Below are positions 3,001-23,790 of a DNA stretch of 27,988 nt, piece after piece. Made by a program: the position numbers and the translations under genes. Source of the DNA: a virus; the IMG/VR virus record IMGVR_UViG_3300005747_000132, positions 1-27,988 of that record; one strand, given 5' to 3'. Each line of letters opens with the position of its first letter. Within the stretch, counting starts at the first letter, position 1. The notes under the pieces were generated by a model. It was not told the DNA's origin. It was given only the letters and a program-made list of their open reading frames with translations, and searched no databases.

Positions 3001-3756
3001 ATGCTGTTAAAACACAATTATTGGTTCTATACGTCTGCACTATCAAACGAGTTTTGCGATAGTGTACTTGCGTTAGGCAAAAACAAAATAGAAGAAATCA
3101 AACAGAATGAAGGTTCTGCGGAAGGTTGGACGTGGGGAGGTGGAGAAAAAAGTAACAAACCAGAAGCAAATCCCCAAACAGATAAAACCCGTAGTGAGTT
3201 AATTGAAGAAGGTATTCAGCCAGAATCTACTTACGTAAGAGATAGTGAAGTATCTTGGTTAGATGATGAATGGGTTTATGATGAAATTACTCCATATGTA
3301 GAACTAGCAAATTACAATGCAGGCTGGAACTTTGATATTGATTTTCACGAATCTTTTCAATTTACAAAATATAATCCTGCAGGATTTTATGGGTGGCACA
3401 GAGACGGAAACAGCGACCATTTAGGAAAATTTAAAAGATTTATTCCAGGTATAACACACGAAGATGAAGGCAGAATTCCTACAGGACACACACTTAATCC
3501 AGACATGGTAGGAAAAGTAAGAAAGTTAAGTGTAACAATCAATATTGCTGAACCTGAAAGTTATGAAGGTGGAGATTTAAAGTTCGATTTTGGTGAACAT
3601 ACAGACAGCGGCAATCGTTTTCATACATGCGAGGAAATACGCCCACGGGGAAGTATAATTGTATTTCCTAGTTTTTTACCCCATTGTGTTACTCCTGTAA
3701 CAAAAGGTACAAGGTACAGTTTAGTACTATGGAGTTTAGGAAGGCCATTTAGATGA
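3001..3756 (+). CDS. 2OG-Fe(II) oxygenase, PKHD/prolyl-4-hydroxylase-like
   Basis: This 251-residue protein looks like a 2-oxoglutarate/Fe(II)-dependent dioxygenase of the prolyl/PKHD hydroxylase type. The double-stranded beta-helix signature is complete: HxD at His133/Asp135 (YGWHRDG), distal iron ligand His228 (FLPHCVTPV) and a 2OG-binding Arg238 (GTRYSLVLW). Such enzymes hydroxylate a substrate while turning 2OG and O2 into succinate and CO2; the substrate here is unknown. An insertion of about 35 residues rich in charge lies between HxD and the next strand (RKLSVTINIAEP). It is the first gene of the plus-strand operon and overlaps the next gene by ATGA. No good ribosome-binding site precedes the ATG, and no late-promoter motif lies on the plus strand upstream, so an early or middle promoter is likely but not identified. 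Confidence 0.88.
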   Translation: MLLKHNYWFYTSALSNEFCDSVLALGKNKIEEIKQNEGSAEGWTWGGGEKSNKPEANPQTDKTRSELIEEGIQPESTYVRDSEVSWLDDEWVYDEITPYVELANYNAGWNFDIDFHESFQFTKYNPAGFYGWHRDGNSDHLGKFKRFIPGITHEDEGRIPTGHTLNPDMVGKVRKLSVTINIAEPESYEGGDLKFDFGEHTDSGNRFHTCEEIRPRGSIIVFPSFLPHCVTPVTKGTRYSLVLWSLGRPFR

Positions 3757-4421
3757 GCGACGAAATTCAAAATTTTTTTAAAGATAATGGTTATGTTGTA
3801 ATCAACAACTTTATAGATAAGCAATTTGCACACATACTTTATGAATATATAAAGATAAATGTACAACGTTCAGATTACAAATATCAAAATGATATAGATT
3901 TATACAACGAGCATTGGGACGGTAATTGGATTGATCCACAAGCACCCGGGGCATACAGTAGGTATGGAGATCCAATGTTTGATACAATTTTAAATGAAGC
4001 ATCTAATATCATGCAAAATTATACAGGCTCTAATACTATTCCTACCTATAGTTATTATAGATTGTATACACAAAACGATGAACTAGTAAGACACAAAGAT
4101 CGACCTAGTTGTGAAATTAGTACAACACTTTGTATTGGTTATGATGTTGAAAATGTAGATCAAAATACATATCCAGATTATAATTGGCCTATGTGGGTAC
4201 AAAATAAAAACGGTGAAGAACTACCTATAAAACTTTATCCAGGTGATATGATTATATACAGAGGTCATGAGATAGATCACTGGCGTGAACCTTTTAAAGG
4301 ACGCAATCATGCACAGGTATTCTTACATTACAACGACGAAGATGGTCCTTTTGCTAAAAAATGGGATGGCCGCCCTATTTTAGGTATACCAAGAGGGTTC
4401 CAAACAAGGAGAGAAAAATGA
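3753..4421 (+). CDS. 2OG-Fe(II) oxygenase-like protein (paralogue of 7015-7671)
   Basis: This 222-residue protein has a recognisable dioxygenase core. His114/Asp116 (VRHKDRPSCEIS) form an HxD, and His176 (IDHWREPFKGR) is the likely third iron ligand, with Arg184 eight residues on as a candidate 2OG-binding residue. It aligns by eye with the protein at 7015-7671 over the whole second half: shared steps are the YxYxRxY strand, H-x-D-R-x-S, PGD-x-x-x-Y-x-G, HWR-x-P and GRPILG/TRPMLG. The start codon sits inside the last codons of the gene before it (ATGA overlap), with GGAAGG upstream. Its stop overlaps the next start in the same way. Substrate unknown. The reading as an active oxygenase rests on the retained metal triad. 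Confidence 0.82.
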   Translation: MSDEIQNFFKDNGYVVINNFIDKQFAHILYEYIKINVQRSDYKYQNDIDLYNEHWDGNWIDPQAPGAYSRYGDPMFDTILNEASNIMQNYTGSNTIPTYSYYRLYTQNDELVRHKDRPSCEISTTLCIGYDVENVDQNTYPDYNWPMWVQNKNGEELPIKLYPGDMIIYRGHEIDHWREPFKGRNHAQVFLHYNDEDGPFAKKWDGRPILGIPRGFQTRREK

Positions 4422-4762
4422 GTTTTGATTTAAACAACCTAAGTGAAGAAATGTTTAATTACGATAATTTAAATGATGAACATAAAAAGGCGGCAGTTGA
4501 AATATTACGTCTTATGCAACAACACGGTGATCCTTTAATTGTAAACGAACTAGTTAAGAAAAACTTTGCATTAGATCCTATGCCTAAAATAAACCCTGAA
4601 GAAAGTTTATTTGTAAAAGCATGTAAAGAAGGTGGACAATATGTCAACATACAAGGACATGTAGAAGATAATGGGGTTCTATATCCTGTTTGTAGTATAA
4701 CAGATGACATAAGAAAATTAGATCAGTTATTTGGTGTAATTAAAGATTTTAAAGTTGAATGA
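4418..4762 (+). CDS. Small protein of unknown function in oxygenase operon
   Basis: I do not recognise this 114-residue protein. The start at 4418 is chosen over an in-frame upstream ATG at 4361 because AAGGAGAG lies just before it and it gives the same ATGA overlap as its neighbours. The first 60 residues look helical (residues such as NDEHKKAAVEILRLMQQHG). The second half has short beta-like segments (GGQYVNIQGHVEDNG, then PVCSITDD) and two cysteines. No signal peptide or membrane segment is visible. Its place between an oxygenase and the carbamoyltransferase, overlapping both, suggests it works with them, perhaps as an accessory subunit; that is inference only. Confidence 0.8.
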   Translation: MSFDLNNLSEEMFNYDNLNDEHKKAAVEILRLMQQHGDPLIVNELVKKNFALDPMPKINPEESLFVKACKEGGQYVNIQGHVEDNGVLYPVCSITDDIRKLDQLFGVIKDFKVE

Positions 4763-6420
4763 AAGTAGTAGGTATTAATCGTATCCATAATAGTGCAGTG
4801 ACCTATTTAGAAAATGGGGAACTTAAATTCCATCTGGAAAATGAAAGACTATCAAACATAAAATACGATTCATATCCTTTTTTAACATTAAACAAACTAA
4901 AAACATATACAAAAGATATTGACAGTCTTGCTATTGCAGGATGTAATAATCTAAAAACTTTTGAAGATTTTACTTCAAGTGATGTGTATAGCGAATATGT
5001 ACAAGGTCTAAATAAAAGTTTTTTAGACAAAGGATTTGATGTATGTGATTATGGAATGGATCATCATTTCTTACATGCCGCACATGCTTTTTACAACAGT
5101 GGATTTGACACTGCACTATGTATAGTAAAAGATGGCATGGGCAGTGAATATCCTATTACAGACAGCAATTTTAAATCAGGAAGTTATGGTAGAGAAATAT
5201 CAAGTGTATTTGAAGGTTCCTATCCTAACATGTTTTATCAAGTTGAAAGAGAAGTTTATGTTCCGTTTGACTGTAACTATACCAGCGACAATGTAACTTA
5301 TACAAACACCGTAAGTGAAGGATTAGCCTTCCAAAAAACAGCAAAACATTTTGGATTTCACGAATTAGATGCTGGAAAAGTAATGGGAATGGCAAGTTAC
5401 GGTAAGCCTGATCCTAATGTTCCTCCTATATATGTAGATAATAAAATTAATCCAGAATTGTTTAATAATGAATTATCAACTACAAAAGAAGTTACATTAA
5501 ACGTAAAAAATTATCCATATTTAGATACAGATGATTTTCAAATACAAGCAAATTTTGCTCGTGCTTTACAAGAAGCAACACAACACAAAGTACTGAATGA
5601 TATAATTAGATTGGTAGAAAAAACTGGACACAATAATGTTTGTTTATCAGGTGGTTATTTTTTAAATTGTGTTGCCAATTATTATTACAAAAAACGCTTA
5701 CCAAAAAATATTAATTTATACATAGAACCAATTAGTAGTGATGCTGGAACAAGTTTTGGTGCGGCCAAATACTTGCACCATACAAGTACTAAAGACACTA
5801 CTAAAAGGCCTCTTAAAACGCTATACACGGGCCTACAGTACACGTTAACACTTGATGACATACAAACTACTACATACAGCAATACAGATGCTAAAACAGT
5901 CGCAAATCTAATTGCTGATGGAAATATTGTTGCTATATATCAAGGTAGAAGCGAAGGTGGGCCTAGAGCATTAGGTAATAGATCAATACTTTTTGATCCA
6001 CGCAATCCAAAAGGAAAAGATATTGTAAACACTGTTAAAAACAGAGAATGGTTTAGGCCGTTTGCAGGAACTATACTTTTGGAAAAAGTAAATGATTGGT
6101 TTGATATGGCAGGCTTAGATGAATCTCCATATATGATGTACGCTGTAGATACAGTAAAAAATAAGATAGATAGTATACCTGCAATTAATCATATAGATAA
6201 TACATGTAGAGTACAAACACTCACACAAAAACAAAATCCAAATTTTTATAAACTAATAAAAGAATTTGAAAATATAACACAGGTTCCTATATTGTTTAAT
6301 ACAAGTTTTAATCTTGCAGGCGATTGTATAGTTGAAACAATACAAGATGCTATAGATACTCTACAAAAAAGCAAAATTGATTATTTGTATGTTCCCGAAT
6401 TAGGAGTATTAATAAAATGA
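4759..6420 (+). CDS. Carbamoyltransferase, NodU/CmcH/TobZ family
   Basis: This 553-residue protein has the two-domain layout of O-carbamoyltransferases. Family members move a carbamoyl group from carbamoyl phosphate, through carbamoyl-adenylate, onto a hydroxyl group of a sugar or antibiotic. The N-terminal ASKHA-like domain starts with VVGINRIHNSA and contains the metal-site histidines (DHHFLHAAHAF, His102, His103, His106, His109) and VKDGMG with Asp125. The GG-motif (LSGGYFLNCVAN) lies near residues 295-308. The C-terminal YrdC-like/carbamoyltransferase part has QGRSEGGPRALGNRS (about 394-408), NREWFRPFAG and FNTSFNLAGD. The length is typical of the family. The start overlaps the previous gene (ATGA), and its stop overlaps the next start. 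The acceptor is unknown; the flanking oxygenases could supply a hydroxyl to be carbamoylated. Confidence 0.93.
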   Translation: MKVVGINRIHNSAVTYLENGELKFHLENERLSNIKYDSYPFLTLNKLKTYTKDIDSLAIAGCNNLKTFEDFTSSDVYSEYVQGLNKSFLDKGFDVCDYGMDHHFLHAAHAFYNSGFDTALCIVKDGMGSEYPITDSNFKSGSYGREISSVFEGSYPNMFYQVEREVYVPFDCNYTSDNVTYTNTVSEGLAFQKTAKHFGFHELDAGKVMGMASYGKPDPNVPPIYVDNKINPELFNNELSTTKEVTLNVKNYPYLDTDDFQIQANFARALQEATQHKVLNDIIRLVEKTGHNNVCLSGGYFLNCVANYYYKKRLPKNINLYIEPISSDAGTSFGAAKYLHHTSTKDTTKRPLKTLYTGLQYTLTLDDIQTTTYSNTDAKTVANLIADGNIVAIYQGRSEGGPRALGNRSILFDPRNPKGKDIVNTVKNREWFRPFAGTILLEKVNDWFDMAGLDESPYMMYAVDTVKNKIDSIPAINHIDNTCRVQTLTQKQNPNFYKLIKEFENITQVPILFNTSFNLAGDCIVETIQDAIDTLQKSKIDYLYVPELGVLIK

Positions 6421-7013
6421 GTATTCAATTAGAACATTGGTTCCCTACTACTATAGGATATGTTTTTAATCCTCATCATGATAAAATAGAAAAAGATTTA
6501 ATTGAGCATTGTAAAAATTTAAAACTGTCTGTACAGCCGGGAGGACAAGACTGGTTGTCTAAAGATACATATAATACTAGTGACGGAAAACATGATTGTT
6601 TTGAAGATGAAAAATTTTCTACACTTAATAAATGGGTATCAGAACAAGTTAATAATTATGCTCAAATGCTTAAAATTAAAAATACATTAATCCCACATTG
6701 TAGTTGGTTTAATATATACGATAAAAATGATTACCAAGAGTTTCATGTACACCCTGGTCTAACTATAAGTGCAATTTATATGTTAGCAGGAGATAAAGAT
6801 AGTGCAAAGGTATATTTTAAAAGTCCTAAAAATGAGATGTTTCATATAGAATATGAAGAATTTTCTAATAATACATTTGGTACTATTAACTACAATGTTG
6901 ATGCAGGTAAACTATTAATGTTTACTAGTGATACTAGTCATAGTGTAGAACGTCATAATAACAGCAATGATAGAATAACAATATCTTACAACTTTATACA
7001 AGAAAGAAGTTAA
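6417..7013 (+). CDS. 2OG-Fe(II) oxygenase-like protein with HxH motif (TIGR02466/PF13759-like)
   Basis: This 198-residue protein resembles the TIGR02466 group of putative 2OG-Fe(II) oxygenases. The start of the core is QEFHVHPGLTISAIYML, where His110 and His112 replace the usual HxD. Later comes FTSDTSHSVERH with His175, and Arg186 in DRITISYNF as a candidate 2OG ligand. The N-terminus (EHWFPTTIGY) is also typical of this group, whose members often open with a 'fP..iy' segment. TTAGGAG precedes the start, and the ATG overlaps the carbamoyltransferase stop as ATGA. Function is unknown. Oxygenase activity is inferred from fold motifs, and the second metal ligand is unusual. Confidence 0.78.
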   Translation: MSIQLEHWFPTTIGYVFNPHHDKIEKDLIEHCKNLKLSVQPGGQDWLSKDTYNTSDGKHDCFEDEKFSTLNKWVSEQVNNYAQMLKIKNTLIPHCSWFNIYDKNDYQEFHVHPGLTISAIYMLAGDKDSAKVYFKSPKNEMFHIEYEEFSNNTFGTINYNVDAGKLLMFTSDTSHSVERHNNSNDRITISYNFIQERS

Positions 7014-7014
7014 A

Positions 7015-7671
7015 ATGAGTTTTAAAAAGGATTTATATAAAGAAATTAAAAGTGCAGTTCCTAAAGAAGTTTGCAGAGTAGCGGCTCGTGAATTTGAAAT
7101 GGCAAAAGACATTGCCACTGCGGCTGTTAGAGATGGACATAAATTTCCCTATCAAGATGAGATGGTTGAAAATAGTTTTAGTTGGTACAGTGCTTTAGCA
7201 TTTGAAAGTTTAAGTGATACAATAATAAAGGATATTGTTGAAAAAGAAATAGGAGAACCTGTTTTTCCTACATATACCTATGCAAGAATATACTATACAG
7301 GTGCAGAAATGAAATATCATATTGACCGAAGTAGTAGTGAATTTAGTGTATCATTATGTGTTAAAACAGATCCTAATCACCCGTGGCACTTAGGAATGGA
7401 AACGTTGCAAGGCGAAAGAAAATATATTGTACAAGAACCCGGGGATGCAGTATTATATAAAGGTAATGAACTTTTTCATTGGAGAGATCCTTACGAGGGA
7501 ACAGAACAAATAAATGCTTTTTTCTTTTTTGTAAGAGCAAAAGGTCCTAAAGCAGTTTTAAAATATGATACTAGACCTATGCTTGGTATGGGTCCTGAAA
7601 CTCGCAAATGGGATAGTGATAAACAATGGAAATTATTTCCAGGTCCAAAAGAAAATCCAACTCATGAATAA
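7015..7671 (+). CDS. 2OG-Fe(II) oxygenase-like protein (paralogue of 3753-4421)
   Basis: This 218-residue protein is a diverged copy of the gene at 3753-4421. His102/Asp104 (KYHIDRSSSEFS) give the HxD, His155 (LFHWRDPYEG) the third ligand. PGDAVLYKG and DTRPMLGM match PGDMIIYRG and DGRPILGI of the paralogue. The position of the paralogue's candidate 2OG-binding Arg184 is occupied by Thr/Glu (YEGTEQ), so cosubstrate binding may differ. The N-terminal 60 residues are unlike the paralogue and look helical (AAREFEMAKDIATAAVRDG). One base separates it from the previous stop, and the ribosome-binding site is weak (AGAAAG), which fits translational coupling. Its last eight bases overlap the next gene. 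Confidence 0.8.
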   Translation: MSFKKDLYKEIKSAVPKEVCRVAAREFEMAKDIATAAVRDGHKFPYQDEMVENSFSWYSALAFESLSDTIIKDIVEKEIGEPVFPTYTYARIYYTGAEMKYHIDRSSSEFSVSLCVKTDPNHPWHLGMETLQGERKYIVQEPGDAVLYKGNELFHWRDPYEGTEQINAFFFFVRAKGPKAVLKYDTRPMLGMGPETRKWDSDKQWKLFPGPKENPTHE

Positions 7672-8287
7672 TTTTATAGAAGTAGGCGAAGTAGGAGTTA
7701 TTCTTTGTGATCTACCTACACAACTAAAAACTAAACTCGATACTATTACTGATAACTTACAACAAGATTTTACAAAAGGAAATAGTTTCAATGACAATCT
7801 AGTAGGACATATTAAACACGAATATGCTTTAGACTATGACACAGATTTAGATATTTTCTTAAACAATCTTATTACAGATTATAATGAAAAATATCCAAAT
7901 TACCTTAAAGATTACAATGTATTATTCAACGATGCTCCGTTAGGATTACACAACCATTGGGTTAATTTTCAAAAGAAGCATGAATTTAATCCTCCTCATT
8001 CTCACAGTGGTGTTTTTAGTTTTGTAATATGGTTAAAGATACCTTATGATTTACAAGAAGAATTAGACTACTTTGGCAATGTAAATCAAGGAAGTAAGAC
8101 AAGTATGTTTAATTTTTTATATACAGATGGGTTAGGTAAAATAAAAACTTACAATATACATGTAGACAAAAACTTTGAAGGAAAAATATGTATGTTTCCT
8201 TCAGAAATGTTACACTATGTAAATCCGTTTTATACTTCTAATGATTATCGTATAAGTTTAAGTGGAAATATAAAACTACAAAACTAA
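7664..8287 (+). CDS. 2OG-Fe(II) oxygenase-like protein with HxH motif, last gene of operon
   Basis: This 207-residue protein has an oxygenase-like core. NPPHSHSGVFSFVIWLKIP holds His112 and His114 in place of HxD, and CMFPSEMLHYVNPF holds His184 as third ligand. Arg196 (DYRISLSGNI) sits where 2OG-binding arginines usually lie. The ATG at 7664 is chosen over an in-frame ATG at 7565, because the longer version would run about 100 bases into the previous gene and the added residues look like an out-of-frame read of it. It therefore overlaps the previous gene by eight bases. It ends five bases before the stop of the convergent glycine-rich adhesin gene. Substrate unknown; it could act on the same target as the other oxygenases of the operon. 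Confidence 0.78.
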   Translation: MNNFIEVGEVGVILCDLPTQLKTKLDTITDNLQQDFTKGNSFNDNLVGHIKHEYALDYDTDLDIFLNNLITDYNEKYPNYLKDYNVLFNDAPLGLHNHWVNFQKKHEFNPPHSHSGVFSFVIWLKIPYDLQEELDYFGNVNQGSKTSMFNFLYTDGLGKIKTYNIHVDKNFEGKICMFPSEMLHYVNPFYTSNDYRISLSGNIKLQN

Positions 8288-15007: not shown

Positions 15008-18000
15008 TTATCCTAACGCTATCGAATATGTTATTGCTTCATCTACTGCTTGTGCCCTTGTTATTACATTTGGAGCAGGTATAGTACTATAATTTACTAT
15101 ACTTATTGCCACTGTATCACTTGGAGCAGTATCAAATGTTAATGTTGTACCACTAACACTAAATTCACTTGGGTTTGTATACACACCATTTAAGAACACT
15201 AACACTCCGTACTTATCTAATGCTTCGTTTGCCATTATAAAAGCGACAGTACTACCATCACCTGTAAACGAATCTACATTAGTTGCCGGAACACTTGGAC
15301 TGCTTAAATGTCTTACATCAACTATCGCACCATTCTCAACTGGATATGCAGTTGATGTACTATCTATAAAGATTAATTCTTTTCCAGCAATAATATATGC
15401 TTCGCCTGGAGTCTGCACAACACCGTTAATAGCAACCATAAGTGATTCTGCTGAGTTTGGTGTAGTTGAAAGTGTAAAGGCGTATTCTGTACCATCACCT
15501 GTAAATGATTGTTGTGTTACTGGAGTGCCATAACCAATACCTAAATAACTCCATCCACCATTTGCAAAGTATGCTTCAAATTTATCAGTTTCAGTGTTTA
15601 ATCTTACTTCACCAGTTGTTGGAGAAACTGCACGTTCTGCTGTTGTTCCTCTTGGTAATATAAGCCTACCATCTTCAAAATCTATAGCACCGTCCGCTTT
15701 AGCAGTAGTTCCGTTGTCACTTGTAATTGCTTTTTTATCTGTATCAGTTACTACAAGTTTACTTGCAGAATAACCTTTAAGTTTTACTGTGTTAGCAGAT
15801 ATAGTTTCGTATCCACTGATTGTAATGTCACCAACTTGTGTACCTTGTTCAATTGATCTTATTGCCGCAAATTCATCTTCGCTTTCATCGTAAACAAATC
15901 CAACGTTAATATCACTTCCTCTTTCAAGGATCATACCCATGTCAACTGCGTTGGCTCCACTTGCACTTTGGTTAAGCGAAATCAAAGGATCTGTAAAGAA
16001 TACGTTACCTGAACTACTCGGTGCACTTGATCCACCATCAATTAAAACTCTACCTGTTCCGTTTGCACGTAAAATTAAATCTTCGTTTGTATTAATATTT
16101 TCAATTACGTTATCGTTAATACTAACTTTGTTATCTACAACAAGTCCACCTCTCGAAATAATAACTTTTGGATAGTCTGGTGGAGTTTCTCCGTAGTTGT
16201 TACCTACATAAAATGTAAATTGGTCTGAGTCATCATTCGCAGTTTCAACAGTTACATATGTGTCACCGTCGCCATCTGTAATTGAACCACCGCCAATTAA
16301 TTCCCATGCACTACCGGACCATGCTTCAATTGATCTTAAATTACTATTATATCTAATAACACCTGTATCACCTGTTCCATACCCTACATGTCTTTGCAGT
16401 GTTGTACCTGTTGGAATTTTAATACCAACAGTACCTGTAAAGTCAACATAAGAACCAGCAGTAACATCTAATGCTTTTATTTTATCAGTTGCAAATCCGT
16501 TTGTTGAATCTAGTTCTGCGGCCTTAGTAGCACCTGTGTAAAAATCTAATCTATCTTCATCAGCACCAGGAACACTTTCTGGAATAATATAAGTGTCGTT
16601 GTCAACATCACGTACTCCGCCTAAACTTGACCAAGCAGTTCCGTTAAAGCCTTCAAATTGTGTTGTATCAGTATTAAATCTTACTGTACCTTTTAATAAG
16701 TTTACATTTCCTGTTGGACGTTCTGCATCTGTACCAACTGGTAACTTAATAGCAGTTGTGTTGTCAAACTTAATAAAATCATCTGTTAGTGGTTGTAAAG
16801 TATTTGTTCTAAAACTTGTTGCATCTAACTGTGCAGTTTCAGTACCACCTGTAAAGAATTGTAAAATATCTTCATCATTACCTGGGCCTGTTTCTGGTTG
16901 AATATATGTATCACTGTCGACATCTCTAACACCGCCCAAAGAACTCCATGCATTAGTTGCATATCCTTCAAACTGTTGTGTTGTTGTATTAAAACGTATG
17001 TGTCCTGTAACACCAGTTGGTCTTTGTATTGTTGTACCAGTCGGAATATTAAGTGCTTCATTACCAACAATATCAACATAACCTGTTTGGTTACCTTGTA
17101 GTTCTAAGTTTGCACCTGATATGGTTGTTTCTAAACCGTTGTTTCTAATTAAAACATTGTCAACTTGTATTTGTGTTGCATTAACTTGATTTTCTTCTAA
17201 GATCATAATCAAGTTAGAAGTTGAACCATCACCTCCGTAGAAGTTTTTAATGTGTGCATTTCTCCAACGTTTTGTAGTTTTACCTACATCGTATGTAATG
17301 TCTGCATCAGGAATTAAATTACTGTTAAGATCTGCATTGATTGTAATATTATCTGTATCTTGGTTACCTAGTGTAATGTTACCTTCTAAATCAATGTTAC
17401 CACTTACATTTAAGTTACCTGTAATATTAGTTTCACCTGTAGTAGGTGTTAAGTTTAAATCACCTGTTGAAGTTGAAATAGTATTTCCTGATAGTACAAT
17501 ATTACCTGTTGCAACTTGTCCTGGATCAATGATAGTAGTGTTAGCACCGTTAGTAAAATTAATACCTGACAATGAACTAACATCAAATGTTCCACCAGTA
17601 AATGTAACTGCACCTGTGTCTTGATCTACATAAAATAAGTCACCAATTCTATAATCACCAAATTGGTCAGTTGAATTATAAAATACTCTACCTGCATTTA
17701 CTTCAACAACTTCGTTTGCTTGTGCAACATCGTTATCGTTATTATCAAACTTTTTACCTGTACCAATGTATCCAAAATCATGTGAACTCATTCTTAAACG
17801 TACATCTGGACCATCTGCTCTAATACCAAACTGTCCATAAACGTTTGCTGATGCAATAGAACGCATTTCTGCGCCAAAATCTTTTCTGTCGTATCTTACA
17901 ATACTTGTTGCAGTTGCACCACTGCCTGTTGTTGCTACAATACTTTGAGGTGTTGTATCAAAACCATCTAAGCCATCATAACGTCCGTCAACAATAAGTG

Positions 18001-19687
18001 TATCACTTCCGCTTACGCTTTCAACTGTACATGTTGTTACTGTTGATCCGTCAGTTGATGTAAATGTAACTACATCACCTGCTAGGAATGTTCCTGTAAT
18101 GCCGCCTAGTTGAATTTTAGTTTTACCATCATTAAACGTACCTGCTGTTCCTGCTAGACCTGTAATACCTTGTTCAGCAAAGTAAATGAAACTGTTAAGC
18201 CATTCTGCTCTACCACCTTCAGTAATAATAATACCTTTTGAATTTGGAACAATAAGTGTTACACTGTCAAACAACATTGCCGCTTCAATTGATCCTGAAG
18301 CAATAGCACTACCATCTATAAGAATACCTCTACCAGCGTCCCCTGCATCATAACCATAAGGATCATCTGATCCGTTAGTTCCAAGTCTAACACTTGAACC
18401 AAAGTTTAATACTGTAACATCTTTAATATATGCTGAACGTCTTGAAATACTTGCGTTTGGTTGATAACAAAAAGCATAACCTGTTGTACCACTCCATTCC
18501 ATTTCTCTTACTGTTAAGTTTTCAACAGTACAATCACCATTCATTCTAAAGAAGTCGTTTGTTCTTGTAGCCGCTGTTGGTTTTAATTGTGTAGCACGTA
18601 GTCCATGTCCAGTAATTGTAATACCCTGTGGCAAATCTAATGGAGCAACTTCTTCAAAAGTACCTGCACCTAATCTAATAGTATCTCCAAATGTTGCAAC
18701 AGATATTGCATGTTTTAGTGTAGCAAAGGCTTCGTTAATATCTCCGCCGTCATTAGCGTCATTACCATTTTTTGTAACATGATAAACATTACCTTCTTGT
18801 AATAATAAATTTGTGCCATTAGCAAGTACTAGTCCTGTACCAGAACTGTTTATGTTAATGTTTGTGTTTGAATTTGTTGCGTAAATTCCTGTGTTGTCTG
18901 CATCGCCATCAACTAGAATATTTCCAAATCTTAATTCGTCGCCTGTTAAGTTTACATTACCACCTGAAGTAATTTCAAGTCCGTAAATGTTTACAACTCC
19001 TGTACCGTTAGCACGAATAATTAAATTTTCGTTAGTGTTTTGTGGTTGTATTACATTGTCAGTGATTTGTAGATCGCCAATATTTGCTTGATTAGAATCA
19101 ATAGTTTTCCAACGCTTACTTGGATTACCTAAAACATATTTGTTTGATTCGTCTGGTAAAATATCACTTACAACATCTGCATTAAAAGTAATGTTGTCTG
19201 TGTTTCCGTCACCTAGTGTAATATTACCTGCCGCAGTAATTGTTCCTGAAGCAAACAAGTTGCCTGAAACATTTGTATTACCAACCAATTCAATTGTACC
19301 AACACCGTTTGGTCTAATTTCAACAGAAGCGTTTGAATCTATTGTAGTAATATAGTTGTCATTTAGTTCTAATGAATCAACTCTAATTTTTGAATGGTAA
19401 ATCACAGGATCATTACCTGCTGGTAATAATTCAATTGTTCCTAAGTTGGATGAAATTGTATTGTTTTGTAAATTTAAGTTACCAACGGAAACTTGGTTTG
19501 TTGCTTGTAAATTTGTTGCGTTTATAGTGCCATTAACATCTACATCATAGGCTGGACTGTTGGTCTTAACACCAATTCTATTGTTGTTTACATCTAAATA
19601 TAATAAATCCGTTTCAAACGCTAAATCTACACCATTACGTAGTAAATTTGCCTTCAACAACGGACCTGAAATTCGACCGACGGCCAT
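15008..19687 (-). CDS. Giant beta-helix tail fibre with repeated fibre modules
   Basis: This 1559-residue protein is a probable tail fibre. It opens with MAVGRISGPLLKANLLRNG, then beta-rich modules (DGNTDNITFNADV, KRWKTIDSNQANIG, NENLIIRANGTGVV) that recur near residue 770 and near 1200. Residues about 304-600 look like a right-handed beta-helix (YHVTKNGNDANDGGDINEAF). RMSSHDF with GRVFY/TDQFGDYRIGD follows near 630-690. Four copies of the P-x-GTT-x-x-R-x fibre motif lie near 877, 979, 1087 and 1344, and three D-x-D-x-DTY repeats lie between them. Two FTGDG modules (about 1394 and 1472) end the protein. The gene follows a 98-base leader with a strong AGGAGAA site and a GACTAAATA promoter. Host receptor unknown; virion location is inferred from architecture. 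Confidence 0.88.
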   Translation of the reverse strand: MAVGRISGPLLKANLLRNGVDLAFETDLLYLDVNNNRIGVKTNSPAYDVDVNGTINATNLQATNQVSVGNLNLQNNTISSNLGTIELLPAGNDPVIYHSKIRVDSLELNDNYITTIDSNASVEIRPNGVGTIELVGNTNVSGNLFASGTITAAGNITLGDGNTDNITFNADVVSDILPDESNKYVLGNPSKRWKTIDSNQANIGDLQITDNVIQPQNTNENLIIRANGTGVVNIYGLEITSGGNVNLTGDELRFGNILVDGDADNTGIYATNSNTNININSSGTGLVLANGTNLLLQEGNVYHVTKNGNDANDGGDINEAFATLKHAISVATFGDTIRLGAGTFEEVAPLDLPQGITITGHGLRATQLKPTAATRTNDFFRMNGDCTVENLTVREMEWSGTTGYAFCYQPNASISRRSAYIKDVTVLNFGSSVRLGTNGSDDPYGYDAGDAGRGILIDGSAIASGSIEAAMLFDSVTLIVPNSKGIIITEGGRAEWLNSFIYFAEQGITGLAGTAGTFNDGKTKIQLGGITGTFLAGDVVTFTSTDGSTVTTCTVESVSGSDTLIVDGRYDGLDGFDTTPQSIVATTGSGATATSIVRYDRKDFGAEMRSIASANVYGQFGIRADGPDVRLRMSSHDFGYIGTGKKFDNNDNDVAQANEVVEVNAGRVFYNSTDQFGDYRIGDLFYVDQDTGAVTFTGGTFDVSSLSGINFTNGANTTIIDPGQVATGNIVLSGNTISTSTGDLNLTPTTGETNITGNLNVSGNIDLEGNITLGNQDTDNITINADLNSNLIPDADITYDVGKTTKRWRNAHIKNFYGGDGSTSNLIMILEENQVNATQIQVDNVLIRNNGLETTISGANLELQGNQTGYVDIVGNEALNIPTGTTIQRPTGVTGHIRFNTTTQQFEGYATNAWSSLGGVRDVDSDTYIQPETGPGNDEDILQFFTGGTETAQLDATSFRTNTLQPLTDDFIKFDNTTAIKLPVGTDAERPTGNVNLLKGTVRFNTDTTQFEGFNGTAWSSLGGVRDVDNDTYIIPESVPGADEDRLDFYTGATKAAELDSTNGFATDKIKALDVTAGSYVDFTGTVGIKIPTGTTLQRHVGYGTGDTGVIRYNSNLRSIEAWSGSAWELIGGGSITDGDGDTYVTVETANDDSDQFTFYVGNNYGETPPDYPKVIISRGGLVVDNKVSINDNVIENINTNEDLILRANGTGRVLIDGGSSAPSSSGNVFFTDPLISLNQSASGANAVDMGMILERGSDINVGFVYDESEDEFAAIRSIEQGTQVGDITISGYETISANTVKLKGYSASKLVVTDTDKKAITSDNGTTAKADGAIDFEDGRLILPRGTTAERAVSPTTGEVRLNTETDKFEAYFANGGWSYLGIGYGTPVTQQSFTGDGTEYAFTLSTTPNSAESLMVAINGVVQTPGEAYIIAGKELIFIDSTSTAYPVENGAIVDVRHLSSPSVPATNVDSFTGDGSTVAFIMANEALDKYGVLVFLNGVYTNPSEFSVSGTTLTFDTAPSDTVAISIVNYSTIPAPNVITRAQAVDEAITYSIALG
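16230..17060 (-). repeat. Tandem fibre repeats of about 105 codons
   Basis: Three units in the 1559-residue fibre each combine a P-x-GT-x-x-x-R motif, an R-x-N-T/S strand, a closing W-x-x-GG, and a D-x-D-x-DTY segment (VRDVDSDTYIQPE, VRDVDNDTYIIPE, ITDGDGDTYVTVE). The first two are closest to each other, which suggests a duplication. Confidence 0.7.
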
Positions 19688-19785
19688 TGTGTTCTCCTAT
19701 AAACGGGCATCCTGTGCCACTAACCACATTACATAGCGGGTTAACCACTGTTTGTCCTGCAAACTGATTCGGTCAAATTTGCATT
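19688..19785 (-). promoter_or_regulatory. 98-base structured leader of the 1559-residue fibre
   Basis: If transcription starts six bases after GACTAAATA, the leader is 98 bases. It contains a GGAC motif, a hairpin at 19735-19749 (AGTGG, TTAAC loop, CCGCT in transcript sense), a second hairpin at 19706-19718 (GGCA/TGCC) and ATAGGAGAA before the ATG. The leader of 21681-22130 has the same length and the same ordered motifs. Confidence 0.5.
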
Positions 19786-19790
19786 AACAG

Positions 19791-19799
19791 TATTTAGTC
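19791..19799 (-). promoter_or_regulatory. Candidate late promoter GACTAAATA
   Basis: Exact copy of the nine-base motif that also lies before 21590 and 22130, in the intergenic space before the giant fibre gene. It is a variant of the T4 late consensus TATAAATA. Distance from its last base to the start codon is 104. Confidence 0.6.
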
Positions 19800-19825
19800 T
19801 TTAATGGAAAAAGGGTATAGTTGGC

Positions 19826-20293
19826 TTAGTCAAAACCGTGTATTACAACGACATCTTTACCTAGAGGTACAGCACTATCAAATCGTAAGTATTGTCCACC
19901 TTGGCCTTGTATCATAGTGTAGTTTACACCTGCAATTTGAACAACGTTTTCTACTAAAACTAAAACGTTTGCGGCTGATGCTGGTGTAGGGTTTAAAGGG
20001 CCAAACTCTTGCTCTGTAGCATCGCCTGTACCTAAAGTTTGAATTGTAATTGTATTAGGACGCATAGTTCTTGCTTCTTCCCATGCATTGTTTACATAAA
20101 ATTCAAATTCATTTATTTCTGTATTATATCTAACTTGTCCATTTTCAGGATATGCTGGACGTTCGGCTGTAGTTCCTGTAGGAACTTTTACTGCATAATT
20201 TGTACCAAGAACAACTTGACCGTTTGCTTCAACAGAAACACTAGGATCTGTGATAAGTTTAGAGTTCAATTGTTGTTTTTTAACAAATCTCAT
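19826..20293 (-). CDS. Small fibre-module protein
   Basis: This 155-residue protein consists almost wholly of two modules that are found as parts of the larger fibres. Residues about 35-72 hold the shared motif (KVPTGTTAERPAYPENGQVRY would be its span; key residues are P-x-GTTAERP, G-x-VRYNT and a closing W). Residues about 82-155 hold the TGDATEQEF module that resembles the FTGDG modules at the end of the 1559-residue fibre and near residue 72 of the 972-residue one. It could be a stand-alone fibre tip, a connector or an assembly partner. The ATG shares one base with the upstream stop (TAATG). Confidence 0.8.
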   Translation of the reverse strand: MRFVKKQQLNSKLITDPSVSVEANGQVVLGTNYAVKVPTGTTAERPAYPENGQVRYNTEINEFEFYVNNAWEEARTMRPNTITIQTLGTGDATEQEFGPLNPTPASAANVLVLVENVVQIAGVNYTMIQGQGGQYLRFDSAVPLGKDVVVIHGFD

Positions 20294-20640
20294 TACACTG
20301 CTACCGTACTGATTGTTGCACTAATTGTAGCCGGTGATGTTGTTTGTGCTACAATAGTATCTCCATTTTCAAGGACTAATCTTTCACTATCCATAATAAA
20401 AGTTTCTCCTCCAGGAATTTTAAGTTGATGTAATATTTTGTTTTCGTCACCTGCTGAACCACCATTTGGTACAATATGTAAATCTAAAAACGTGTCTGCA
20501 TCAGTTAAAACATTTCCTGCACCTGCAATATTATCTGTGTCTTGATAGTTACAAAATATCATACTTGTAACTGCCGAGTCACCACTGCTGGTGTAAAGTG
20601 TTGTTAATGTAGCATCTATAAAGTTGTTTGTAATCGCCAT
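20293..20640 (-). CDS. Small beta-rich virion-associated protein (paralogue-like to 14667-14999)
   Basis: This 115-residue protein has alternating hydrophobic strands and polar loops: ATLTTLYTSSGDSAVTSMIF, then N, a strand with DLHIVPNG, HQLKIPGGETFIMDSERLVL, LENGDTIVAQT and a C-terminal run of Thr/Ile. The order of elements matches the 110-residue protein at 14667-14999, and both sit directly beside giant fibre genes. TTAGGAAAAA lies before the start, in the tail of the 313-residue gene. No enzyme motif is visible. A fibre accessory role is inferred from position. Confidence 0.75.
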   Translation of the reverse strand: MAITNNFIDATLTTLYTSSGDSAVTSMIFCNYQDTDNIAGAGNVLTDADTFLDLHIVPNGGSAGDENKILHQLKIPGGETFIMDSERLVLENGDTIVAQTTSPATISATISTVAV

Positions 20641-20648
20641 TGTTTTTC

Positions 20649-21590
20649 CTAAAATAACATGCTATAAAGCAATGCCTTCTTTTTACTTACTAATTCATCT
20701 CTAGTACTAGATGTATTTACAAAATATAGTCCAGAACCGCCTTCTGCTTGGGTTTGAGAATATAGTTTAATTCTACCACTATCTGCACTTGGAGCCGTCG
20801 GACTTACTGCACCTTCAATACTTAATACATCACGTACAACAACTTCTCCTGTGCCGTTAGTTTCTAAAAATAAACTATTGTTTGATGTTGTTGGACGGAT
20901 TGTAGTTCCGTCTATTTGTAGTTCTTGTAATTCTGTAGTAATACCGTTTACACTAAATTTTTGTACACCGTCTACATTAATAGTAAACTGTGATAGTGGA
21001 TCACCGTCACTAGTATCAAACACTTCAGCAATAGTATTGCCTGCTGTCATTCTACTAATAGCCGCTCCTGCAACCGCAGTATCTACATACTTCTTATTTG
21101 GAATATCATCATCGTCTGTTACGTTAGTTTCATAGTCACTTGTTCCTGTAACACTAACAACAGCATTAGGAGCATTTTGTCCTAGCAATAATAAATTTTC
21201 ACCTGAAGTTTCAACTACGTGTGCTTGGATTGCTCCAAGACTTGATCCTACTTTAAATGTAAAAACACCTTCGCCTGTACCACCATTTGGTTGTAAGTAT
21301 GACAATGTATCATCAAATACAAAATTTGCTGGAGAACTTGAAGGGCCTCTGTATATATTAAGTCCTGCTTGTCCTAAACTAATTCCGCTTCCGCCTGTTT
21401 CACCTGAGTTGAGGGTAATAATATTATCTTCAATGGTCATGTTAGCAGTTTGAATTGTAGTTGTAGCACCAAGTACAGTCAAATCTCCAGTAATTCTCAC
21501 TTCTGGGGTATCCATAGTAAGTCGTGTTCCGATACTAGTGGAAGTTACGATTTTGTAATCACCTGTTACTTTAAGTACATCTACTGCCAT
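20649..21590 (-). CDS. Fibre-like virion structural protein
   Basis: This 313-residue protein has a beta-rich sequence with repeated short strands (VRITGDLTVLGATTTIQT, MTIEDNIITLNSGE) of the sort seen in phage fibre shafts. IPNKKYVDTAV near residue 165 is a conserved short step also present in other fibres of the window (KKYVDE in the 972-residue protein, KTYVDQE in the 1507-residue one). LQIDGTTIRPTTSNNSLFLE matches the NENLIIRANGTG-type unit of the 1559-residue fibre. The C-terminus (SGLYFVNTSSTRDELVSKKK) ends in a short basic/hydrophobic tail. AAAGGAT is the ribosome-binding site and a GACTAAATA motif lies 29 bases upstream. It probably leads its own late transcript covering the next two small genes. 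Confidence 0.82.
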   Translation of the reverse strand: MAVDVLKVTGDYKIVTSTSIGTRLTMDTPEVRITGDLTVLGATTTIQTANMTIEDNIITLNSGETGGSGISLGQAGLNIYRGPSSSPANFVFDDTLSYLQPNGGTGEGVFTFKVGSSLGAIQAHVVETSGENLLLLGQNAPNAVVSVTGTSDYETNVTDDDDIPNKKYVDTAVAGAAISRMTAGNTIAEVFDTSDGDPLSQFTINVDGVQKFSVNGITTELQELQIDGTTIRPTTSNNSLFLETNGTGEVVVRDVLSIEGAVSPTAPSADSGRIKLYSQTQAEGGSGLYFVNTSSTRDELVSKKKALLYSMLF

Positions 21591-21618
21591 TTGAATAAGG
21601 ATCCTTTGTTAATAGTAT

Positions 21619-21627
21619 TATTTAGTC
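21619..21627 (-). promoter_or_regulatory. Candidate late promoter GACTAAATA
   Basis: Third exact copy of the motif. It lies directly after the T-rich tail of the terminator at 21630-21657 and before the fibre-like gene starting at 21590, giving a leader of about 23 bases with AAAGGAT. Confidence 0.6.
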
Positions 21628-21629
21628 AA

Positions 21630-21657
21630 GAGAAAAGGGCAAAGCGAACTTTGCCCT
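21630..21657 (-). terminator. Intrinsic terminator with TTCG loop
   Basis: In transcript sense a nine-base-pair stem AGGGCAAAG/CTTTGCCCT closes a TTCG loop and is followed by TTTTCTCTT. It lies 24 bases after the stop of the 149-residue gene. Stem, tetraloop and T-rich tail together fit a factor-independent terminator. Confidence 0.85.
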
Positions 21658-21680
21658 CTCCTAATGTTAATAACCAACGA

Positions 21681-22130
21681 TTATGCGTCTTCTGTGAAGT
21701 CGTCGTCGTCTGTTCCAACTAGTGTATTATCGTCACCTGCTTCTTCAACTTGTGCCGCACCATCTGAAGTACTTGTGCTAAAGTTCCACGGTAGACTTTG
21801 TCCGTCATAAGCGTTTGCACCTGTTGCACTTGGAGCAGATAAAGTTGCTTTACGTCCAGTAATTTTACTTACTGTGTATGTTTCTGCATCATCCATTTTG
21901 AAAGAAATAGCCATTTCACCTGCCGCTAGTGCCGCTGGTAATTTGCCAGTTGTTAGTGTACAAGTAAATTCGCCGCCTGTGCCAATTTCTTCACACACAA
22001 ATTTCTTTGAACCTTTTTGTTTTACGATATAACCTTCTTTAACGGCTGTGCCATTATGAAAGTTTACTTTGATCTCGTTTCCGCCTGCTGTAGGTGTTCC
22101 GAATAATCTTTTGTTTAGTGGTCTTCCCAT
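21681..22130 (-). CDS. Probable virion structural protein of marine T4-like phages
   Basis: This 149-residue protein opens with MGRPLNKRLFG and a segment (VNFHNGTAVKEGYIVKQKG) with two basic patches, followed by strand-like sequence (GEFTCTLTTGKLP, KITGRKATLSAP) and a strongly acidic C-terminal tail (DDNTLVGTDDDDFTEDA). I recognise the opening as a type common beside capsid genes in marine myoviruses, where it is annotated only as structural or hypothetical. The gene has its own late-type promoter, a 98-base leader with ATAGGAGAA, and its own terminator, so it appears to be expressed as a single-gene transcript, as suits a high-copy virion protein. Basic head and acidic tail could serve electrostatic assembly; that is inference. 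Confidence 0.82.
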   Translation of the reverse strand: MGRPLNKRLFGTPTAGGNEIKVNFHNGTAVKEGYIVKQKGSKKFVCEEIGTGGEFTCTLTTGKLPAALAAGEMAISFKMDDAETYTVSKITGRKATLSAPSATGANAYDGQSLPWNFSTSTSDGAAQVEEAGDDNTLVGTDDDDFTEDA

Positions 22131-22228
22131 TTGTTTTCTCCTATTATAGTAGTCCTATCTGGGTTCTATCCAGTACGCTGTGGGTTAAACAGCATAAGTC
22201 CATTACATTATGTAATTTCCTATTTGAC
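22131..22228 (-). promoter_or_regulatory. 98-base structured leader of the 149-residue virion protein
   Basis: Predicted leader between a GACTAAATA promoter and the ATG. It has GGAC, a hairpin at 22177-22193 (GCTGT, TTAACCC loop, ACAGC in transcript sense), a second hairpin at 22159-22173 (CTGG/CCAG) and ATAGGAGAA. GGAC and TTAACCC fall within one base of their positions in the leader at 19688-19785. Confidence 0.5.
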
Positions 22229-22233
22229 AGTGA

Positions 22234-22242
22234 TATTTAGTC
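22234..22242 (-). promoter_or_regulatory. Candidate late promoter GACTAAATA overlapping a stop codon
   Basis: Exact copy of the motif, 104 bases before the ATG at 22130. The TAA inside it is the stop codon of the 95-residue gene upstream, so promoter and gene end are interlocked. Confidence 0.6.
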
Positions 22243-22596: not shown

Positions 22597-23790
22597 TTAC
22601 GAGAATGATACGTTTGCTGTTGTAATAGCAACTTTACCTAAGTAGTCACCAGCGTTACCTAAAGATGACGCAGTGTTAGTAAGTTCTACATAACCATAAC
22701 GTGTCATGAAGCCTACTACTGGCTCAAAAGTTTCAGGATCTAATACTACACCTGAACTCATTAGTGGAATGTATGGGCAATAAAACGCCGCCGCATCCGC
22801 TTCTGATGAACCTTTGTAACCAACAAGTACTTGGTTGTTGTCTTCTGCAGTTGTATCAGCCATATAAGCGTCAACATATACTCTCATAGCGTTATTCAAA
22901 GTACCTACAAATTTAGTATTTGTTGGTGCTTCAAAAGTACCTTCAGTTGTTCTTGCAAACGCTGAAGTTGTAGCAGATTGTAGGATAGTTAATGCTTGGT
23001 TTGAAACCACTGCAAAGTTACCTGCACCTCTACGTGTACGCTGTGCGATTTTGTTAGCAGTTCTGTTGATTTGAACAGCAAGTGCCGCATGTTCATCACC
23101 AACAAAAGTTGCTGTACCGCTTACAGCCGCTTGGTCGTAAGTTTCTTCAACTGAAGCAAGTGAACGAAGAGATGTTAAAATCTCTTGGTCAATCTCAGCA
23201 GTAATCTCTTGTGCAAGAGCCGCCATGATTTCCGCTTCAATATCGATACCTTGTTGTGCTTGAGCATCTTGTGCCGCTTCAAACGTCCAACGTGCAGATA
23301 GTTTTCTTGACTTCGCTTCTACTGCTTGTTTTAAGATTTGAATTGACAATCTGTTACCTGCACTACCTTCAAGTGCCGCAGTACCTGCCGCTTTACCTGA
23401 TGTACCGTCACCAGCATATGCTTGACCGATTTTGAATGGTGATAAAGCCTCATCACCTGCAGTCACATCATTTGCAGTTCCTGTAGCGTTGTTAGTGTCC
23501 GAGTAACGTACTCTTAGTGTGTGAATTTGTGACACTGGTCCAGTCATTGGTTGTACACCTACGATTTCATTTGCGATAACCGTTGGCATTACACGTCTAA
23601 TTACTGGAAGAATCACTCTGTTTAGTGTTGCAACATTTCCTGCGGAAGTTGCACCAGCAGTTGCCGACTCAGCGAGATAACGTCTAGTATTCTCGAGAGT
23701 GACATCCATCACGCTTTTCTTGTGTCCGTTAAGACCTTCTAGAAGTGCGCCTTTGGTAGCCTGCCAATTTTCATTGATCATTTCTGACAT
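22597..23790 (-). CDS. 23: Major capsid protein gp23
   Basis: This 397-residue protein is the T4-type major capsid protein that forms the hexamers of the head. The stretch from NRVILPVIRRVMPTVIANE through VQPMTGPVSQIHTLRVRY is the hallmark of gp23 in marine T4-like phages. A prohead protease site of the L-x-E type lies at Leu39-Ala40-Glu41 just before SATAGATSAG, as expected for removal of the N-terminal propeptide by gp21. Length is shorter than T4 gp23 (521 residues), probably through reduced insertions in the peripheral domain. A strong AAGGAG precedes the start, 16 bases after gp22. The gene is followed by an intrinsic terminator, so it ends the head transcript. No separate promoter is obvious before it. 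Confidence 0.96.
   Translation of the reverse strand: MSEMINENWQATKGALLEGLNGHKKSVMDVTLENTRRYLAESATAGATSAGNVATLNRVILPVIRRVMPTVIANEIVGVQPMTGPVSQIHTLRVRYSDTNNATGTANDVTAGDEALSPFKIGQAYAGDGTSGKAAGTAALEGSAGNRLSIQILKQAVEAKSRKLSARWTFEAAQDAQAQQGIDIEAEIMAALAQEITAEIDQEILTSLRSLASVEETYDQAAVSGTATFVGDEHAALAVQINRTANKIAQRTRRGAGNFAVVSNQALTILQSATTSAFARTTEGTFEAPTNTKFVGTLNNAMRVYVDAYMADTTAEDNNQVLVGYKGSSEADAAAFYCPYIPLMSSGVVLDPETFEPVVGFMTRYGYVELTNTASSLGNAGDYLGKVAITTANVSFS

Follow-up and report, generated by a model that had tools for sequence, protein, structure and literature searches.

Two long mRNA leaders in a sequence of 27,988 nucleotides from an uncultured T4-like phage (the window; IMG/VR record IMGVR_UViG_3300005747_000132) contain conserved, structured RNAs. 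The leader of the minus-strand gene starting at position 22130 is the Rfam family freshwater-2 (RF02980), an RNA that was already known, but functionally unexplained. The leader of the minus-strand gene starting at 19687 is, by sequence comparison, a separate RNA without an Rfam entry, in which an H-type pseudoknot is the central feature. We propose with moderate confidence that both leaders are cis-acting RNAs on separate late messages, and that each controls the translation of its own virion gene.

The second RNA is a widespread phage-borne pseudoknot with strong covariation that is missing from Rfam. For freshwater-2, what is new in the sequence data is a gene context, namely its strict linkage to a family of probable virion genes (MGRP), a late promoter box, its occurrence as one copy per record, and also a near-universal CC in the loop of its second hairpin.

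Two long leaders of late genes

The T4-type late promoter box GACTAAATA occurs on the minus strand at 22234..22242 and again at 19791..19799. It ends at 22234 and 19791, respectively, so that 103 bases separate it from the ATG in each case (22130 and 19687). This distance is long, because TAAATA upstream of other genes in the window is 5-40 nt from the start codon, except for one TTGTAAATA at 73 nt. An earlier note on this sequence correctly described these long, equal gaps, as well as GGAC (offsets 32/33) and TTAACCC (offsets 45/46) within one base of the same place in the two leaders, the placement of ATAGGAGAA before both ATGs and a further hairpin 3' of the TTAACCC hairpin in both. Dinucleotide shuffling produces a shared 7-mer at a matching offset in 2.5% of cases (p 0.025), and as many shared 4-mers in 1.3% (p 0.013). 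These p values are weak evidence alone, because the comparison is post hoc; it is conservation in relatives that proves selection on both leaders. The note's proposal of a selected RNA element upstream of late virion genes is borne out for both in this way: the hairpins persist among relatives with compensatory changes, and the late promoter box is present in 157 of 158 distinct relatives of the 22130 leader (as TAAATA) and in 125/125 distinct relatives of the 19687 leader.

What the note took to unite the two leaders did not hold up. Equal length was suggested to be a selected trait, and we rejected this idea because leader lengths vary among relatives, from 63-115 nt for freshwater-2 (median 90) and from 69-134 nt for the pseudoknot RNA (median 101). 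Nor did we accept TTAACCC as a functional loop common to both, since it is only one of many apical loops in freshwater-2 relatives (16/157), and in the family of the 19687 leader it forms one strand of a covarying pseudoknot stem. Thus, while the expected conservation of hairpins in related phages was found, the TTAACCC loop is not conserved as such in either family. GGAC is also not kept among relatives of the 19687 leader. Judging by these relatives, the shared TTAACCC and the equal length of the two leaders are coincidental.

Freshwater-2 RNA and the MGRP gene

The RF02980 model matches the 22130 leader over the model's full length, including the Shine-Dalgarno sequence and ATG, at positions 22217-22128 (72 bits versus a gathering threshold of 49.9, E 2.1e-9); this is the only Rfam match in the window. 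The RNA (22128..22217, minus strand, like the other parts of the two leaders and their genes) has three hairpins, followed by the Shine-Dalgarno sequence and ATG. Among 34 distinct relatives, 7 of the 16 base pairs in these hairpins have changed on both sides. Hairpin 1 (AUUACA/UGUAAU, 22202..22216) is supported by folding, the Rfam match and covariation. Hairpin 2 (UAUGCUGU/ACAGCGUA, 22174..22196) is supported by folding and covariation, and its 8 base pairs enclose the 7-nt loop UUAACCC (22182-22188), as the note had claimed. The corresponding loop in relatives is ACCC, TACCC, ATATCCA, AATTGACCCA or others, and only CC is near universal (154/157). Hairpin 3 (CUGG/CCAG, 22159..22173) has the conserved loop AUAGAAC, and is supported by the Rfam match and covariation.

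The gene downstream of this RNA (21681..22130) encodes a 149-aa protein of the MGRP family. This is probably a virion protein, because its relative EST35_0383 in phage PA5oct is annotated as a structural protein detected by mass spectrometry ("structural protein, ESI-MS/MS"). The predicted structure of the MGRP protein (pLDDT 79) is beta-rich and yielded no convincing match in the PDB. Rfam classes freshwater-2 as cis-regulatory, and in the literature we found no paper that describes its function. Directly after the MGRP gene and before the next GACTAAATA, there is a strong hairpin resembling an intrinsic terminator (GAGGGCAAAG..CUUUGCCCUUUU, 21627-21660). Given this hairpin, the MGRP message is probably monocistronic.

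A pseudoknot RNA that is absent from Rfam

None of the 4227 models of Rfam 15 matches the 19687 leader, even at E 10, and the freshwater-2 model is no exception, let alone at its gathering threshold. We compared 125 distinct leaders from IMG/VR contigs, which share a common anatomy: a 5' hairpin, an H-type pseudoknot, a second hairpin, the Shine-Dalgarno sequence and ATG. The consensus of the pseudoknot is NGUG-G-UUAACC-CGCN'-AUGUAAGGU-GGUUAG. In the window, the 5' hairpin, P1 (19758..19783), has the loop GACC (19771-19774). P1 varies in sequence among relatives, and it folds better than shuffles, with z < -1 in 75/77 relatives and a mean z of -2.75. The pseudoknot (19720..19749) consists of stem S1 (AGUG at 19746-19749 with CGCU at 19735-19738), a single G as L1 (19745), stem S2 (UUAACC at 19739-19744 with GGUUAG at 19720-19725) and L3 (19726-19734), which is nearly invariant in relatives. 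The second hairpin, P4 (GGCA-CAGGA-UGCC, 19706..19718), exhibits a GC/CG exchange in relatives, and is followed by the Shine-Dalgarno sequence AGGAG (19694..19698), which, as in freshwater-2, is outside the conserved stems. The end of S2 is 27-34 nt upstream of the ATG in 105 distinct cores.

Compensatory changes support both stems of the pseudoknot, as UA/AU/CG in S1, and AU/GC/UG and CG/UA in S2. Pairing is possible in 92.8% of cells in S1 and S2, versus 35-49% when the partners are slid relative to each other, and an unguided covariation scan ranks the pairs of S1, S2 and P4 highest among the fully pairable ones. There are variations: an A-A mismatch interrupts S2 in one large subgroup, and some members have an extra hairpin within L3 and have lost one S1 pair. 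The note had placed UUAAC in a hairpin loop. This part of the 19687 leader can indeed be drawn as the loop of an AGUGG/CCGCU hairpin, but the relatives show that it pairs in a pseudoknot stem. The nested fold of the whole leader has no stability beyond that of shuffles (mean z -0.36), as expected if the pseudoknot dominates. The gene downstream (15008..19687) encodes a 1559-aa protein of the GRISGPLLK family that is baseplate-wedge or tail-fibre-like (PHROG baseplate wedge, E 1.2e-130).

Linkage to genes and distribution

We scanned IMG/VR with motifs for both RNAs, ignoring gene identity. All 120 copies of the pseudoknot RNA (120/120) are upstream of GRISGPLLK genes. The freshwater-2 motif gave 134 matches, of which 130 are before MGRP or MAR genes, 2 are cut off and 2 are chance matches. 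Model searches of records of at most 245 kb found one copy each of freshwater-2 in 17/20 records and of the pseudoknot RNA in 18/22. Where a locus has both RNAs, they share a strand, with freshwater-2 first and the pseudoknot RNA 2.3-8.5 kb further downstream (98/98 loci, which are partly redundant). At one locus (L173:482-2120), two MGRP genes of 367 and 134 aa stand in tandem, and a separate freshwater-2 leader precedes each of them.

An MGRP gene is also present in the cultured jumbo phages PA5oct and Phosso, where it follows a late promoter box after a leader of only <40 nt, and a model search of these two phages found neither leader RNA. Control by RNA would therefore be dispensable in some phages. 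A motif search of bacterial genomes gave no copy of the pseudoknot RNA, and only one of 101 freshwater-2 matches looks real. This one (L469), with the start of an MGRP gene, is on a contig assigned to the MAG of a marine member of the Rickettsiales, which could be a hint of the host or a binning error. Separately, we observed that the window contains a block of ORFs (3001-8287) on the plus strand, opposite to that of the virion genes, of which by eye some resemble 2-oxoglutarate oxygenases and one a carbamoyltransferase.

Possible pairing of leader loops with first codons

One loop in each leader is complementary to the first codons of its gene: GACC to GGUC within the Gly-Arg codons, and CCCA to AUGGG. 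In the window, the candidate partner of the P1 loop is UCGGUC (19675..19680) in codons 3-5 (GUC GGU CGA). At exactly this site the window uses the rare codons GTC (19/521 Val) and CGA (9/202 Arg). Among GRISGPLLK genes, the Gly-Arg codons are GGT in 136/142 cases (46% elsewhere) and CGN in 137/142 (53% elsewhere). The minimum-energy fold of the leader plus 36 coding nucleotides includes a P1-codon helix of about 12 bp. The energy of the P1-codon duplex is -15.1 versus -13.05 with shuffled P1, and 0/200 shuffles are as strong. By permutation, there is also strong covariation between the P1 loop and the wobble position of codon 3.

These data suggest pairing between leader loops and first codons. 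However, we put it forward only as a hypothesis, for three reasons: the covariation finds no support when independent pairs are tested on a 124-protein tree, duplexes with permuted partners come close in stability (22/200), and the codon bias persists where GACC is absent (GGTCGN is retained in 23/29 such leaders). The unguided covariation scan found no leader-codon pair. Another candidate, pairing of the Shine-Dalgarno sequence with codons 11-13 (GAGC/GCTC; Fisher p 6e-6), was rejected, as the association is not phylogenetically independent and is absent in the window's own clade.

Two further observations concern this region. In a clade whose proteins start with VANVGRISG (L180, L232 and L251), the P1 loop is GUUGGUC or GUUGGUU and the coding start is GGCCAAC, possibly a compensatory switch of the leader-codon pairing. 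Also, the start of the GRISGPLLK gene (19645-19687 in the window) keeps rare synonymous codons across relatives (Pro CCG 111/119, Leu CTC 77/121 and Lys AAG 88/112), to a greater extent than at conserved residues further on. The pseudoknot RNA may continue past the ATG into the gene itself.

Possible functions

Both structures are conserved, directly upstream of the Shine-Dalgarno sequence and ATG, 3' of a late promoter box and associated one-to-one with a gene family. Their position by the ribosome site, the late promoter box before nearly every copy and the one-to-one linkage lead us to favor gene-specific translational control, most simply autogenous. The pseudoknot and hairpins would then form a binding platform beside the 30S site, and a gene-specific factor would bind the leader; the simplest candidate for this factor is the protein that the gene itself encodes, or else an assembly intermediate. 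As an alternative to such a factor, a leader loop might fold back on the first codons, i.e., GACC on GGUC and CCCA on AUGGG. Either event would set the amount of that virion protein that is made. In a more elaborate version, which we consider quite doubtful, the leader RNAs, unrelated but in the same virion-gene cassette, each fold back on the first codons of their own gene as autogenous switches, and so set the proportion of head-region to tail protein. If true, pseudoknot-based translational feedback in phage assembly would extend beyond T4 gene 32.

The leaders might instead be general 5' stabilizers or translation enhancers of abundant late messages, whose fold blocks decay or holds the ribosome site open without a specific ligand. 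Their location before virion genes and 3' of late promoter boxes is compatible with such a role, as are Shine-Dalgarno sequences outside the conserved stems. However, a general device of this kind, as suggested in the note, predicts reuse on several abundant late genes, whereas each RNA occurs once per record and with a single gene family, and neither precedes the major capsid gene (22597-23790). Moreover, the conserved unpaired stretches (AUGUAAGGU and UAGAAC) exceed what a stabilizer needs. We therefore regard this explanation as possible but unlikely, and the linkage of one gene with one RNA as favoring gene-specific translational control.

H-type pseudoknots with highly conserved loops are common in riboswitches, and the nearly invariant L3 would fit a sensor that binds a small molecule through the pseudoknot. 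It is nonetheless very unlikely that the leaders are riboswitch-like, given linkage to virion genes rather than to metabolism and the lack of a match to any Rfam riboswitch. A compact pseudoknot and conserved loops could also belong to a signal for self-cleavage or RNase processing, by which the message would be trimmed at its 5' end, but no ribozyme family matches, and this role seems highly improbable. The idea that both leaders diverged from a single ancestral one draws on their equal length in the window, TTAACCC and GGAC in the same order, and neighboring genes in a fixed order, yet it is scarcely credible and was already disfavored, because neither model detects the other leader, the conserved parts differ (CUUAUGC..GCGUA..UAGAAC versus GUGG..AUGUAAGGU..ACAGGAU) and TTAACCC is kept as such in neither family.

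Comparison with known systems

With respect to RF02980, the 22130 leader is a member and the 19687 leader is not. The gene 43 operator of T4 and RB69 is a phage leader hairpin with a UAAC loop that is used in autogenous translational control (PMC3014915). This operator lacks a pseudoknot, whereas UUAAC in the window's leaders is paired in a pseudoknot or part of a variable loop.

The 19687 leader resembles the gene 32 operator of T4, T2 and RB69, in that each is a phage mRNA leader with an H-type pseudoknot 5' of the Shine-Dalgarno sequence. The T2 gene 32 pseudoknot has a one-base L1 and an S2 of about 6 bp, and the 19687 leader is alike in these respects. T4 gene 32 controls translation through its pseudoknot leader (PMC535899, PMC3014915), and a 2010 review considered that translational autoregulation by a viral pseudoknot may be unique to this case (PMC3014915). 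However, the 19687 leader has a different sequence, and precedes a late virion gene rather than a gene for an ssDNA-binding protein. Gene 32 has unstructured UUAAA repeats over the ribosome site (PMC535899, PMC3014915), while the 19687 leader instead has a hairpin and then GUUUAUAGGAGAACACA. Additionally, in the gene 32 type the gene's own product binds the pseudoknot as a translational repressor, and the likeness of the 19687 leader is one of topology. Because it lacks the UUAAA repeats and its ligand is only putative, the 19687 leader is not a member of the gene 32 type, and at most would work like the T4 gene 32 operator. Both RNAs offer a direct test of whether phages tune the ratios of their virion proteins by gene 32-like control.
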